Assembly (NCBI RefSeq): GCF_022627575.1
Contig: NZ_JADEYQ010000015.1
Coordinates: forward strand, 1 to 64,000
Origin: Sphingobacterium rhinopitheci
GTDB lineage: Bacteria > Bacteroidota > Bacteroidia > Sphingobacteriales > Sphingobacteriaceae
Length of the DNA stretch: 64,000 nt
Direction of reading: 5' to 3'
A program made the position numbers and the translations under genes. The notes under the pieces were generated by a model that worked only from the letters and a program-made list of their open reading frames with translations, had not been told where the DNA came from and searched no databases. Within the stretch, counting starts at the first letter, position 1, and each line of letters begins with the position of its first letter. Of the stretch, positions 52,112-57,427 are shown one piece after another.

Positions 52112-52417
52112 TAAATCGCTTTTTTTTAATTTACAACTTTGTTTTGATTTACTGAAAGTCATATATCCTTCCGTTTAGATCATAACGAAGATAGGGCTTC
52201 TTATATAGTAATCCAAGCAATTTTACCCTAATTTAACATTTTATTAACACTTTGCTATCTATAATAGTCTTTTAATAAGGTTTTTAAGTGATATTTAGTT
52301 CGCTGATTTTATGTTTTTTAACATTTTTTGTGTTTTAAGAGCTATTTCGTACAGTTTTTCAAATGTAACGGCATAAGTTGATATTTCGATTTATATAAAA
52401 ATATATTAAATAAAATA
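52112..52417. other. Divergent intergenic interval
   Basis: About 300 AT-rich bases between the divergent NlpC/P60 gene and the threonine leader. No gene or strong hairpin is evident apart from the end of the alternative 5' extension of the NlpC/P60 frame. Confidence 0.45.
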
Positions 52418-52446
52418 TTGTATTTATAAATTATATTTTATCTTTA
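52418..52446 (+). promoter_or_regulatory. Likely promoter of the threonine operon
   Basis: TTG (52418-52420), an 18-base spacer and TATCTTTA (52439-52446, one mismatch to TAnnTTTG). If used, transcription starts near 52452 and the leader ORF would begin at the second ATG (52467). Confidence 0.5.
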
Positions 52447-52550
52447 TGAAATATTTACAGAAAACAATGCAACAAGGCACGATTATTACAACGATTATTA
52501 TTACCACTGGGATTACATACCTCGGAGGAAGTACTTCTATTGTTGAATAA
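52446..52550 (+). CDS. thrL: Threonine/isoleucine-rich leader peptide of the thr operon
   Basis: A 34-codon ORF (or 27 codons from the second ATG at 52467) containing GTIITTIIITTGIT. Eight of the 34 residues are Thr and seven are Ile, clustered in codons 12-24, just before a terminator and the thrABC genes. This is the composition of the E. coli thr leader peptide, where ribosome stalling at Thr and Ile codons controls termination. The ORF ends with TAA at 52548. The peptide itself need have no function. The better promoter fit favours the shorter form. No homology search was possible; the call rests on composition, position and the RNA structures beside it. Confidence 0.8.
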   Translation: MKYLQKTMQQGTIITTIIITTGITYLGGSTSIVE

Positions 52551-52608
52551 TTAGTGTTCAAAAGATATGTGAAGCCTTCCTCTTAAAAAGAGGAAGGCTT
52601 TTTTTGTT
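52525..52608 (+). promoter_or_regulatory. Attenuator: antiterminator and terminator of thrABC
   Basis: GAGGAAG inside the leader ORF (52525-52531) is the same seven bases as the core of the terminator's 3' arm (52590-52596). It can therefore pair with CTTCCTC in the terminator's 5' arm (52577-52583) and prevent termination. GAAGTACTTC at 52528-52537 is self-complementary and could form a competing pairing that frees the terminator. The stalling codons lie upstream, as needed for Thr/Ile-responsive attenuation. Confidence 0.68.
52572..52607 (+). terminator. Leader terminator of the threonine operon
   Basis: AAGCCTTCCTCTT (52572-52584) pairs perfectly with AAGAGGAAGGCTT (52588-52600) around AAA and is followed by a T run. 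It lies 40 bases before thrA, so unregulated it would block the operon. Confidence 0.88.
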
Positions 52609-52646
52609 AGTCACTTATTTTAAACAACTATAAACAATAAACCAGT

Positions 52647-55097
52647 ATGAAAGTATTAAAGTTTGGGGGAACTTCAGTCGGTTCTAAAGAGAGTATAAGG
52701 GCTGTTCTTGATATCGTAAAAAAATCTCATGATAATGGAGAAAAGCCTTTGGTCGTATTATCGGCAATGGCTGGCGTAACCAATCTTTTATCTAAGATGG
52801 CAGACAATGCTGCCGAACGCTTATCATTTGATGCCGATATACAATATTTAGAAGAGAAACATTTTGCTGTTGTAAAGGAGTTAATCGCAGTAAAATATCA
52901 AAATCCGGTACTTACCAAATTAAAGTTGATGCTTAATGATCTTGAAGAAATCCTTCATGGTGTATTTGCATTAAAAGAACTTAGTCCACAATCTAAAGAT
53001 TTAATTGTTTCTTTTGGCGAGCGTTTTTCCAATTATTTGGTATCTAAAATTATGGAACAATATATCCAAGATGCTTTATATATCGATGCTTCGCATTATG
53101 TAAAGACGGATTCTAATTTTGGAAATGCACATTTGAATGAAGAATTAACTACACAATTAATACAATCTTTGGCGATAACACATGCAGATAAGTTATTATT
53201 TGTAACAGGTTTCATCGGCTCTAACGACAAAGGTCGTATAACTACATTAGGACGCGGCGGCTCTGATTATACAGCGGCTATTTTTGGATCTGTATTAAAT
53301 GCGGAGGTCATTGAGATATGGACGGATGTGAATGGTATGCTTACAGCTGATCCTCGTATTGTGAAAAAAGCATTTTCTCTACCTGTTCTATCGTATACGG
53401 AAGCGATGGAGTTATCTTATTTCGGCGCTAAGGTGATCTATCCACCGACGATGATTCCTGCCTTTATGAAGCGTATTCCTATCGCTATACGTAATACTTT
53501 TGACCCCGAATTTGCAGGTACATTTATTCAGTTTGCATCAGATTGTACGCAATATCCTATCAAAGGTATTTCTTCCATATCGGATATCTCTATTATCAAT
53601 CTTTCGGGATCGGGGATGATTGGAAAATCGGGCTTCTCTGGGCGATTATTTACGTTGTTGGCGCGCGAGCAAATCAATGTGGTATTGATTACGCAATCGT
53701 CATCTGAGCACAGTATTACTTTTGCAGTAAATCCTTCTGATGCTGAAAAAGCATTGAAGCTCATCGGTCAAGAATTTGAATTGGAATTGGAAGCAGCTAA
53801 GTTGGTGATTCCCGAGGTAGAAGAAAATCTATCTGTACTGGCAATCGTGGGTGAAAATATGAAACGTACGCCAGGTATGTCCGGTAAATTATTTGCTGCT
53901 TTAGGACGTAATGGTATCAATGTACGTGCTATAGCACAAGGATCTTCTGAGTTTAATATTTCGGTTATTATTTCCAAAGATGATCTAGCCAAAGCATTAA
54001 ATGCTGTACATGATGCTTTTTTTGCGGAGCTAAAGAAAACATTACATGTTTTTAATTTGGGTACCGGAAATATTGGAGCGACATTATTCCGACAGTTAGC
54101 CGAACAGCATGACTTTTTGTTGGAAAATAATGATATTGAAATAAAAGTAGTAGGTGTTTCAAATTCACGAAAAATGGTGTTCAATTTAGAGGGCATTAAT
54201 TTGGATACTTGGAGCGATGAGTTAGACGAAAAGGGGGAGTTAGCGGATTTGTCAGGTTTCGTAGAAAAGATGAAAGCTTTTAATTTGCCAAATTGTGTGT
54301 TTATAGATAATACAGCCAGTAAAGTGCCGGCCACATATTATGAAGATATTTTTAAAGCTAATATATCTATTGTTACGTGTAATAAAATAGCTAATTCTGG
54401 AGAGTATGCACAATATCGTTTGTTACATGATACGGCACGTAAGCATGGCGTAGATTTCTTCTATGAAACTAACGTAGGTGCAGGTTTACCTATCGTTAGT
54501 GTTTTAAAGGATTTGATGCTCAGTGGAGATCGTATTTTGAAAATTGAAGCTATTCTTTCAGGTACTATATCTTATATCTTTAATAATTTTATAGGCGATG
54601 CTTCTTTCTATGATGTGGTGAAGAAAGCCCAAGAATTAGGATATACAGAACCTGATCCTCGCGATGATTTAGGAGGTGTTGATTTTATGCGTAAGATGTT
54701 GATTTTGGCTCGTGATGCTGGCCATAAGATGGAGTCTTCAGATGTAAATTTGGGTGCTATTTTACCAGAATCATGCTTGAAGGCTAATTCGGTAGATGAA
54801 TTTTATACTGAATTATTAAAGGCTGATAAATATTTTAATAGCTTGAAAGAAAAGGCAGCAGCAGCGCATAAAGTTATTCGTTATATCGGCAAATTAGAAA
54901 ATGGAAAAGTGGATATTTCTTTACAGTTTGTAGATGAAAATCATCCTTTCTATGCCTTATCAGGCAGTGACAATATTATATCTTTTACGACAGAACGTTA
55001 CAAAGAAAGACCGTTAGTGGTAAAGGGGCCAGGTGCTGGTGCTGAAGTAACTGCAGGTGGTGTATTTGCGGACTTAGTAAATGTTGGGTCAAAATAA
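52647..55097 (+). CDS. thrA: Bifunctional aspartokinase / homoserine dehydrogenase I
   Basis: An 816-residue fusion catalysing the first and third steps from aspartate to homoserine. The kinase part (about 1-290) has KFGGTSVGSKESI at the start and TLGRGGSDYTAAIFGSVLNA. Two ACT domains (about 305-460), with signatures such as GENMKRTPGMSGKLFAALGR, bind threonine for feedback. The dehydrogenase part (about 465-816) has the NADP motif NLGTGNIGATLFRQL, then FYETNVGAGLPIVSVLKDLM and DPRDDLGGVDFMRKMLILAR. It is the first gene of thrABC, under the attenuator. Confidence 0.97.
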   Translation: MKVLKFGGTSVGSKESIRAVLDIVKKSHDNGEKPLVVLSAMAGVTNLLSKMADNAAERLSFDADIQYLEEKHFAVVKELIAVKYQNPVLTKLKLMLNDLEEILHGVFALKELSPQSKDLIVSFGERFSNYLVSKIMEQYIQDALYIDASHYVKTDSNFGNAHLNEELTTQLIQSLAITHADKLLFVTGFIGSNDKGRITTLGRGGSDYTAAIFGSVLNAEVIEIWTDVNGMLTADPRIVKKAFSLPVLSYTEAMELSYFGAKVIYPPTMIPAFMKRIPIAIRNTFDPEFAGTFIQFASDCTQYPIKGISSISDISIINLSGSGMIGKSGFSGRLFTLLAREQINVVLITQSSSEHSITFAVNPSDAEKALKLIGQEFELELEAAKLVIPEVEENLSVLAIVGENMKRTPGMSGKLFAALGRNGINVRAIAQGSSEFNISVIISKDDLAKALNAVHDAFFAELKKTLHVFNLGTGNIGATLFRQLAEQHDFLLENNDIEIKVVGVSNSRKMVFNLEGINLDTWSDELDEKGELADLSGFVEKMKAFNLPNCVFIDNTASKVPATYYEDIFKANISIVTCNKIANSGEYAQYRLLHDTARKHGVDFFYETNVGAGLPIVSVLKDLMLSGDRILKIEAILSGTISYIFNNFIGDASFYDVVKKAQELGYTEPDPRDDLGGVDFMRKMLILARDAGHKMESSDVNLGAILPESCLKANSVDEFYTELLKADKYFNSLKEKAAAAHKVIRYIGKLENGKVDISLQFVDENHPFYALSGSDNIISFTTERYKERPLVVKGPGAGAEVTAGGVFADLVNVGSK

Positions 55098-55111: not shown

Positions 55112-56113
55112 ATGTCAAATAATAAAGTGTCAACATCTATTGAAGGAAAAGCAGACCTATCACATGCAGTAGATAAAATTCGTGTATTTGCACCTGCTAC
55201 GGTAGCAAATATGATATGTGGATTTGATATATTAGGATTCGCTGTAGATCACCCTGGTGATGAGGTGAAGATGTATAAAGTACCAACTCCTGGTGTTCGT
55301 ATTCGTTCTATTGAAGGCGATGATGGACGACTTCCTTTGGATGCTGACAAGAATACTGTCAGTGCCTGTGTCAAGATGCTGCTTCGTGATTTGGGAATAT
55401 TAGACCACATCGGTATTGAGATTGAATTGATTAAACATATGCCTATCGGTTCGGGTTTAGGATCTAGTTCCGCAAGTACTGTTGCTGGCTTATTCGCTAT
55501 AAATGCGCTGTTAGGATTTCCATTGACCAAGGATGAGTTGATGCCTTATTGTGTAGAAGGCGAACGTTTGGCTTGTGGCCACGGTCACGCAGACAATGTT
55601 GCGCCTGCATTGATGGGGGGTGTTACCTTGATACGTGGACAGGAGGATTTGGATGTCATCAAATTGCCTGTTCCGCCAAAATTATATGCTGGTATTGTAT
55701 TCCCTCAAGTTGATGTGCCGACACGCGAAGCCAGACAACTAATCAAAGACAAAGTATTGTTGAAAGATGCGGTCGTACAATGGGGAAATATTGCTGGATT
55801 AATAGCTGGTTTATTTCAACATGATTATGAACTTATTGGTCGTAGTATGCATGATGTATTAATTGAACCTACTCGAGCAATATTGATTCCTGAGTTTTAT
55901 GAGATGAAGCGTATAGCTTTAGAAAATGGAGCATTGAGTTTCGGTATTTCTGGGTCAGGGCCATCTGTTGTGGCTATTACTAAAGGAGAAGAAATTGCTC
56001 GAATCGTGACCGAAAAGATTAAAGCGCATTTGTCAGCACGAGATATTGAGAGCTATCAATATGTATCTAATGTGAACGTAGAAGGTCCAAAAGTATTACC
56101 ATTTAATGATTAA
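55112..56113 (+). CDS. thrB: Homoserine kinase
   Basis: A 333-residue GHMP kinase phosphorylating homoserine. The N-terminal VFAPATVANMICGFDILGFA is diagnostic, the ATP loop is PIGSGLGSSSASTVAGL, and FGISGSGPSVVAI is the third GHMP motif. The N-terminus has an extension of about 25 residues before the domain. It starts 14 bases after thrA and is followed by thrC after 6 bases. Confidence 0.96.
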   Translation: MSNNKVSTSIEGKADLSHAVDKIRVFAPATVANMICGFDILGFAVDHPGDEVKMYKVPTPGVRIRSIEGDDGRLPLDADKNTVSACVKMLLRDLGILDHIGIEIELIKHMPIGSGLGSSSASTVAGLFAINALLGFPLTKDELMPYCVEGERLACGHGHADNVAPALMGGVTLIRGQEDLDVIKLPVPPKLYAGIVFPQVDVPTREARQLIKDKVLLKDAVVQWGNIAGLIAGLFQHDYELIGRSMHDVLIEPTRAILIPEFYEMKRIALENGALSFGISGSGPSVVAITKGEEIARIVTEKIKAHLSARDIESYQYVSNVNVEGPKVLPFND

Positions 56114-56119
56114 TAGGAA

Positions 56120-57427
56120 ATGAAATTATATAGTACAAATAATAAAGATTTACGTGTTTCTTTTGAAGAAGCTGTTTTTAATTCTTTGCCACAAGACAAA
56201 GGGTTATATATGCCTGTAGAGATACCTCAATTGGATCCATTATTTATAAAAAATATTCAACAGTATTCCTTACAGGAGATTGCCTTTACGGTAGCTAATG
56301 CTTTAATAGGCGATGATATCCCTAGAGAAGATTTAAAGAATATTGTGGAAGATGCCATTAATTTTGATGCACCTGTCAAGTTTTTAGATTCTACTACGGC
56401 CGTATTGGAGTTGTTTCACGGACCTTCATATGCCTTCAAAGATTTTGGTGCTCGATTTATGAGCCGTGTGATGGGTTATTTTGCGAAAGATGGTGATCAA
56501 TTGTTAGATGTATTAGTGGCTACATCGGGCGATACCGGTGGTGCTGTAGCATTGGGGTTTTTGGGTGTAGCAGGTACGCGTGTTACCATCCTTTATCCTA
56601 AAGGAAAAGTATCAAAAGTACAAGAAGAGCAATTGACAACAAATGGACAAAATATTCGCGCTTTAGAAGTTGACGGTACCTTTGATGATTGTCAAGCTTT
56701 GGTAAAGCAAGCTTTTAATGATCAAGAATTGAATCAGCAGTTGCGATTAACTTCAGCTAATTCTATCAACATTGCGCGTTTGATACCTCAAACATTTTAT
56801 TACTTCTGGGCTTATGCACAGTTGAAATCTCAAGGTATTAATGAGGTTGTGTTTACGGTACCTAGTGGTAATTTTGGTAATATTGGTGCTGGTTTATTAG
56901 CGTATAAATTAGGCCTTCCAGTAAAACATTTTGTTGCAGGAACAAACGTGAATGATGTAGTTCCACGTTTCTTACAAAGTGGCTCTTATGATCCAAAACC
57001 TTCCATCCAGACATTAGCTAATGCGATGGATGTCGGTAATCCGAGCAACTGGGTACGTATTCAAGATTTGTTTGCACATAATTTGGACGATTTGCGTGCG
57101 TTGATTTCATCATATACATATACAGATGAACAAACAAAAGTCGCTATGCAAGAATTATATGACAAATACAATTATATTGCTTGTCCACATACGGCAATTG
57201 CTTATATGGCAGCAGAAGCTTTTAAGAAAGATTTTCCCGGTGAATATGCTTCCGTGTTTTTATCTACCGCACATCCGTGCAAATTCCCTGATGGAATTGA
57301 AGCTTCTATTTTTGAACACGTAACCTATCCAAAAGGAGCAACAGAATTGGCTGAAAAGCCTAAATTGGCACATGATTTAAAAGTTTCCTATGAAGAATTT
57401 AAGACGTATCTGCTAGATAATAAATAA
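56120..57427 (+). CDS. thrC: Threonine synthase
   Basis: A 435-residue PLP enzyme converting O-phosphohomoserine to threonine. KLYSTNNKDLRVSFEEAV and the LPQDKGLYMPVEIP stretch at the start are typical. The PLP lysine is in GPSYAFKDFGARFMSRV, phosphate binding in ATSGDTGGAVALGFLGV. It is the last gene of the operon and is followed by a strong terminator. Confidence 0.97.
   Translation: MKLYSTNNKDLRVSFEEAVFNSLPQDKGLYMPVEIPQLDPLFIKNIQQYSLQEIAFTVANALIGDDIPREDLKNIVEDAINFDAPVKFLDSTTAVLELFHGPSYAFKDFGARFMSRVMGYFAKDGDQLLDVLVATSGDTGGAVALGFLGVAGTRVTILYPKGKVSKVQEEQLTTNGQNIRALEVDGTFDDCQALVKQAFNDQELNQQLRLTSANSINIARLIPQTFYYFWAYAQLKSQGINEVVFTVPSGNFGNIGAGLLAYKLGLPVKHFVAGTNVNDVVPRFLQSGSYDPKPSIQTLANAMDVGNPSNWVRIQDLFAHNLDDLRALISSYTYTDEQTKVAMQELYDKYNYIACPHTAIAYMAAEAFKKDFPGEYASVFLSTAHPCKFPDGIEASIFEHVTYPKGATELAEKPKLAHDLKVSYEEFKTYLLDNK

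Follow-up and report, generated by a model that had tools for sequence, protein, structure and literature searches.

How might a short leader region in front of the threonine biosynthesis operon thrABC control its transcription in Sphingobacterium rhinopitheci? The locus was studied in a stretch of 64,000 nucleotides, hereafter the window, in which a divergent gene is followed by a promoter-like motif, a leader ORF, a terminator, thrA and, closely behind it, thrB and thrC (Table 1). A sequence-only reading had placed a threonine/isoleucine attenuator in front of thrA. As judged from sequence comparison and folding models, it is highly probable that a classical three-hairpin, ribosome-mediated transcription attenuator controls thrABC.

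Table 1. Coordinates of the thrABC operon and of the features assigned to its leader region
Feature	Position in window	Strand	Basis
Bacteroidota-type promoter-like motif, TTG (52418-52420) and TATCTTTA (52440-52447)	52418-52447	+	motif conservation
Leader peptide ORF, 27 codons, MQQGTIITTIIITTGITYLGGSTSIVE	52467-52550	+	ORF in the window and family conservation
Protector hairpin (1:2), outer helix 52476-52495 with 52539-52558, inner helix 52499-52511 with 52521-52533	52476-52558	+	minimum free energy fold, clade alignments
Regulatory Thr/Ile codon run, T-I-I-T-T-I-I-I-T-T-G-I-T	52479-52517	+	aligned cores, Thr/Ile interchange nearly everywhere
Element 2, GGAGGAAG, antiterminator 5' strand inside the ORF	52524-52531	+	8-mer conservation, co-evolution with the terminator 5' arm
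Antiterminator hairpin (2:3), 52524-52531 with 52576-52583 and 52534-52537 with 52571-52574	52524-52583	+	-19.2 kcal/mol
Intrinsic terminator (3:4), stem 52571-52584/52588-52601 and U-run	52571-52607	+	fold, compensatory changes in the family
thrA, bifunctional aspartate kinase/homoserine dehydrogenase I	52647-55097	+	NF006959, 1020.7 bits (cut-off 726)
thrB, homoserine kinase	55112-56113	+	TIGR00191, above cut-off
thrC, threonine synthase	56120-57427	+	TIGR00260, above cut-off

The leader ORF and the terminator in front of thrA

The comparison was based on 181 thrA upstream regions, nearly all from Sphingobacteriaceae, that were collected from named genomes and from searches at the family, order and class level. 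This sample covers genera of the family with a thrA of at least approximately 62% identity and one locus of a neighboring family (L087); the closest thrA relatives (85-87% identity) came nearly all from Sphingobacterium species. Some genomes entered twice via different collections and unique sequences were used where stated. Two genera of the family with divergent thrA (48-50% identity) contributed six loci (L204-L209) that were left out of the 181 as an outgroup. The terminator-type thr element is absent from these six loci, and two of them (L207 and L208) carry another leader design that has no U-run.

The predicted short ORF rich in Thr and Ile codons is present in front of thrABC, with GTIITTIIITTGIT at positions 52476-52517 and a stop codon at 52548-52550. 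An ORF with at least five Thr/Ile codons and a run of four was found in 174 of the 175 loci that have a perfect terminator, compared with 3.5% of dinucleotide shuffles and 15 of 175 loci on the reverse strand; because the loci share ancestry, these and the following shuffle and permutation counts are not to be taken as probabilities. As the search rule itself selects for Thr/Ile, the aligned ten-codon cores were examined too, in which Ile and Thr swap freely at positions -10 to -4 and the third codon positions vary most (entropy of 0.24, 0.64 and 1.25 at positions 1, 2 and 3). Thr is replaced mainly by Ile and at times by Ser. The neighboring-family locus L087 has an Ile/Met/Thr leader that the search rule missed. 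The codons match the pathway of the operon, as thrABC lies downstream of a Thr/Ile-rich ORF. Because Thr is near-invariant at the end of the run and a few leaders lack Ile, the main signal is probably Thr, with Ile in second place.

Two start codons had been considered for the leader peptide and the shorter version was favored. This choice is borne out by the position of the -7-like box, by the A-rich context and by the homologous leader peptides, which start at the codon equivalent to 52467. Family leader starts are A-rich at -7 to -3, a context that is found at 52467 and is missing at the upper ATG (52446), and the -7-like box TATCTTTA overlaps the latter codon; the upper ATG was therefore rejected as a start. 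A motif of the form TTG-N17-22-TAnnTT[TA] at most 75 nt upstream of the leader start was detected in 105 of 153 family loci and in 5.4% of shuffles.

The region 52150-52700 contains a single terminator-like site (shuffles give 0.1 +/- 0.3), which reads GAAGCCTTCCTCTT-AAA-AAGAGGAAGGCTTT at 52571-52601 and is followed by a T-run. The 13-bp stem noticed before was confirmed with 13 Watson-Crick pairs and grows to 14 bp with one G-U pair, and its distance to thrA had to be corrected from 40 bases to 45 nt between the stem end and the ATG at 52647. Perfect stems of at least 9 bp precede the T-run in 175 of the 181 loci, and imperfect, interrupted stems are found in the remaining six. The covariation score of the terminator is 0.363 (0.199 shuffled). 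In a 51-row family alignment, the terminator was the sole structure recovered by RNAalifold, a run that is blind to other helices because MAFFT shifts the in-ORF element by 1-2 columns between clades; folds within clades worked, with the exception of one mixed group in which nothing was found. The 167-nt leader region folds 4.8 standard deviations better than shuffles.

The strong conservation and covariation of the terminator arms would also suit a premature terminator that is constitutive or controlled by a factor, the leader ORF then serving as filler that is translated or as a pausing device, with no sensing of amino acids. Such a terminator would not account for the retention of Thr/Ile codons while third positions drift, nor for the exchange of Thr mainly with Ile and sometimes with Ser. 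In addition, codon identity tracks the pathway within this genome, as Trp codons are found in front of trpE and His codons in front of hisG, and the insensitive terminator is regarded as very unlikely.

Predicted antiterminator and protector helices of the leader region

Attenuation by a translating ribosome requires alternative pairings, and the sequence-only reading had pointed to one of them, as seven bases of the terminator 3' arm (GAGGAAG) recur in the ORF at 52525-52531. The repeat is exact, and the usable element is longer (52524-52531). Its proposed pairing with the terminator 5' arm is conserved and covarying in the family and is prolonged by an extension of CUUC (52534-52537) with GAAG (52571-52574), for which together an energy of -15.6 kcal/mol as a duplex and -19.2 kcal/mol as a hairpin was computed. 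This extension and the protector helix were absent from the earlier reading and were found in the follow-up.

The exact 8-mer GGAGGAAG occurs in 106 of 174 leaders across all three reading frames, usually directly 5' of the stop codon; it encodes RRK in 53 loci, GGR or similar in 47 and EEG/EEV in 6. As the element is read in three frames, the sequence comparison argues that the RNA rather than the peptide is under selection there. Bacteroidota ribosomes do not use Shine-Dalgarno pairing, as their anti-Shine-Dalgarno sequence is sequestered (PMC9976891); therefore, this Shine-Dalgarno-like sequence within the ORF should not trap ribosomes. The reading frames also bear on the idea that the ORF encodes a functional small protein and that the terminator lies nearby by chance. 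An ORF of about 21 residues is indeed conserved across the family, but its C-terminal part is read in three frames among species, its length ranges from 15 to 36 residues, and Thr/Ile composition and RNA alone are retained, which makes a functional small protein very improbable.

The pairing between element and terminator 5' arm is present in every clade despite changes of the arm. Among unique loci, the arm types are CTTCCTC (109), CTTTCCTC (14), GTCCCGA (10), CTTCCGA (8) and, more rarely, CTTCTCTC (4), CTCCCGA (3) and others. Independent element/arm replacements include GAGGGAAG/CTTCTCTC, GAGGGGAG/CTTCCCTC, TCGGGAAGG/CCTTCCCGA and TATCGGGAGC/GCGTCCCGATA. Unique loci were grouped into 12 arm classes and the best duplex of each leader region was calculated both with own-class arms and with arms from the remaining classes. 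The own-class pairings total -187.5 kcal/mol, which was matched by 0 of 20,000 class permutations in a test that counts replacement events and not independent samples, as arm classes are clades. The small class CTTCCCC showed no cognate advantage. A mean non-cognate comparison across all arms was weak because CTTCCTC is common to most arms, and the class-level test was used instead. In the family alignment that had been suggested as a check, all three features are retained, namely the Thr/Ile codons, the terminator and an alternative pairing that covaries.

The protector hairpin has a minimum free energy of -21.7 kcal/mol. In the naked pre-terminator transcript of the window, the element is sequestered by upstream pairing with P = 0.73, and in 92% of loci it is hidden by upstream codons with P > 0.5. 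In the outer helix, the first Thr/Ile codons pair with the stretch past the element (for example ACACCAU/AUGGUGU in Mucilaginibacter), and in the inner helix ACC-ACC-GG of the near-fixed Thr-Thr-Gly codons pairs with the element. Synonymous replacement weakens the protector from a mean of -18.2 kcal/mol (native) to -13.3 kcal/mol, and in 96% of 156 loci the synonymous shuffles are less stable than the native protector. Synonymous codon choice favors the protector beyond the amino-acid code, and this selection accounts for the nearly constant use of ACC in the final Thr codons, in contrast to the variable Thr codons elsewhere. The Thr-Thr-Gly codons (52503-52511 in the window) read ACC-ACC-GG in 108 of the 128 leaders that contain this tripeptide. 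This fixation apparently serves pairing with the GGAGG element.

A stable naked leader fold of this kind could also belong to a metabolite- or tRNA-binding RNA, such as a riboswitch or T-box, that reads the signal in place of a translating ribosome. Nevertheless, neither the window nor ten homologous loci matched any Rfam family at threshold, T-box families included, and conservation resides in the codons and the complementarity, with low primary conservation elsewhere; an RNA sensor is therefore judged highly unlikely. A permissive Rfam search yielded hits over the terminator that were far below their own thresholds and represent no real family. Least probable of all is a main role of the terminated leader (about 150 nt) as a small RNA acting in trans, as is possible for short terminator-ended RNAs, since a trans role needs neither the complementarity observed between the element and its own terminator nor their coevolution.

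Modeled ribosome states and the predicted switch

At the sequence level, comparison of the loci establishes the ORF, its codon identity, the terminator, the covariation of the antiterminator and the selection on the protector, and the ribosome-mediated attenuator was modeled on these parts. Three states were considered, namely no ribosome, a ribosome stalled at the final Thr/Ile codon at which the element still stays free and a ribosome at the stop codon, with an assumed ribosome footprint of approximately 15 nt upstream and 12 nt downstream of the A-site codon. For stalling, coupling, signal and read-through, we infer the following course. RNA polymerase would start approximately 10-20 nt upstream of the leader ATG (52467). 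If no ribosome is present, the codon run would pair with the segment around and after GGAGGAAG to form the protector, the element would be hidden and the terminator would form; the modeled state without a ribosome consists of protector and terminator. With charged tRNA-Thr (and probably tRNA-Ile) in short supply, the ribosome would stall on the Thr/Ile codons and break the protector, and the freed GGAGGAAG would pair with the terminator 5' arm, allowing transcription of thrABC. In the stalled-ribosome model, the antiterminator is predicted with P = 0.97 in the window and with P > 0.5 in 99.4% of loci.

With charged tRNAs in good supply, the ribosome would reach the stop codon and either mask the element or let the inner protector close behind it, and transcription would end approximately 46 nt before thrA. 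In the model, a ribosome at the stop codon covers at least 50% of the element in 86% of loci. The stop codon of the window lies 19 nt past the element and a terminating ribosome covers 0% of it, a minority pattern that is also seen in L008, L010, L011 and L016. This stop-codon distance is the sole departure of the window from the family norm. Repression here would have to come either from the inner protector (52499-52511 with 52521-52533), which would close once the ribosome has moved on, or from ribosome passage, which would in itself block the pairing.

Related leaders and comparison with known attenuators

Leaders with other codons were observed in the same genome. Upstream of trpE (L217:725-863), a leader MITKSTYQLWWWPEANSVGQQSY that contains WWW is followed by a GCCCGAC...GTCGGGC terminator, and the leader ORF contains a repeat of the 3' arm of this terminator in the same design as for thr. 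This trp design matches no Rfam family, is present before trpE in most of 30 family loci (L249-L278) and was counted in favor of the thr attenuator. The prephenate dehydratase gene (L218:1341-1480) is preceded by a Phe/Tyr-rich leader MNNFSTYNFYYFFYFNNKSKD and a terminator hairpin, and hisG (L214, contig C7) by a His-rich leader (MILSHTNNLHMHHRHCGDM is an example of these peptides). His-rich leaders without a U-run terminator precede hisG in 29 of 30 family loci (L219-L248); most of them have a GC hairpin near the stop codon (for example AUCGCCA-UUG-UGGCGAU) and a second small covarying hairpin (GUUUC-UACGU-GAAAC or GUUUUG-UACGU-CAAAAC). No leader or terminator was found at ilvD and at a second chorismate-binding gene of the genome.

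Thr/Ile/Met-rich leaders were also seen at thrA loci of other families or divergent genera (L092, L094, L097, L099, L100, L105, L106, L107, L207 and L208), with ACCCC-N4-GGGGU over or next to the stop codon and no U-run; a CTACGTGA/CTACGCGA-like motif is common to L105, L106 and the his leader of Sphingobacterium. A phylum-wide suite of independently arisen leader-peptide switches in Bacteroidota is a tentative reading, to which we give slightly less than an even chance. It would comprise two designs, one with an intrinsic terminator for Thr, Trp and Phe/Tyr in Sphingobacteriaceae and one without a U-run for His and, elsewhere, Thr. The latter has a terminal GC hairpin at or beside the stop codon, to which many leaders, most His leaders among them, add the second small covarying hairpin. 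If so, it must act by another step, for example pausing, Rho or translation.

By the account of a 2010 survey, leader-peptide systems had been recorded in Proteobacteria and Actinobacteria alone, to which it added Firmicutes (PMC2965389). Within Bacteroidota, genome-wide work on Flavobacterium psychrophilum combined transcript maps with RNA structure, predicted leader-peptide attenuation upstream of amino-acid operons, for which it reports 'strong clues', and cites the elements in front of hisG and pheA as examples of conservation in the family (PMC9723704). These elements share the phylum and the proposed mechanism with the Sphingobacterium thr leader, and the main text of that study describes no thr attenuator or pairing scheme (PMC9723704). 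In B. thetaiotaomicron, short ORFs that recall leader peptides have been described (PMC7366714). The Bacteroid-trp RNA motif (RF01692) is likewise a putative cis-regulatory RNA of Bacteroidetes (PMC2864571), but it matched neither the window and ten homologous loci nor the trpE locus of the same genome. In the literature, leader-peptide attenuation in Bacteroidota was found as a prediction and no demonstration was found; a description of the Sphingobacteriaceae thr element was not found either, and the attenuation survey by Lopatovskaya et al. (2010) may already contain thr attenuators from the phylum.

The thr element provides a fully specified and comparatively supported case of leader-peptide attenuation for Bacteroidota and adds a leader peptide and an attenuator to the annotation that are missing from Rfam. 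It would imply tight coupling of transcription and translation in a phylum whose ribosomes initiate independently of Shine-Dalgarno sequences. Ribosome-mediated attenuation is a textbook mechanism, of which the thr element is a new instance. In the E. coli thr attenuator, a Thr/Ile leader peptide and alternative protector, antiterminator and terminator structures precede thrABC. The Sphingobacterium leader resembles this gammaproteobacterial thrL system (RF00506) in its Thr/Ile leader peptide, in the operon order and in the three alternative structures. As the sequence-only reading had supposed, the shared logic comes without kinship in sequence, since the window scores 22.9 bits against the Thr_leader model (threshold 55) and is not a member. 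Unlike thrL, the Sphingobacterium leader belongs to another phylum and has no Shine-Dalgarno start, and in Sphingobacteriaceae the ORF itself contains the antiterminator strand, in most cases immediately ahead of the stop codon.
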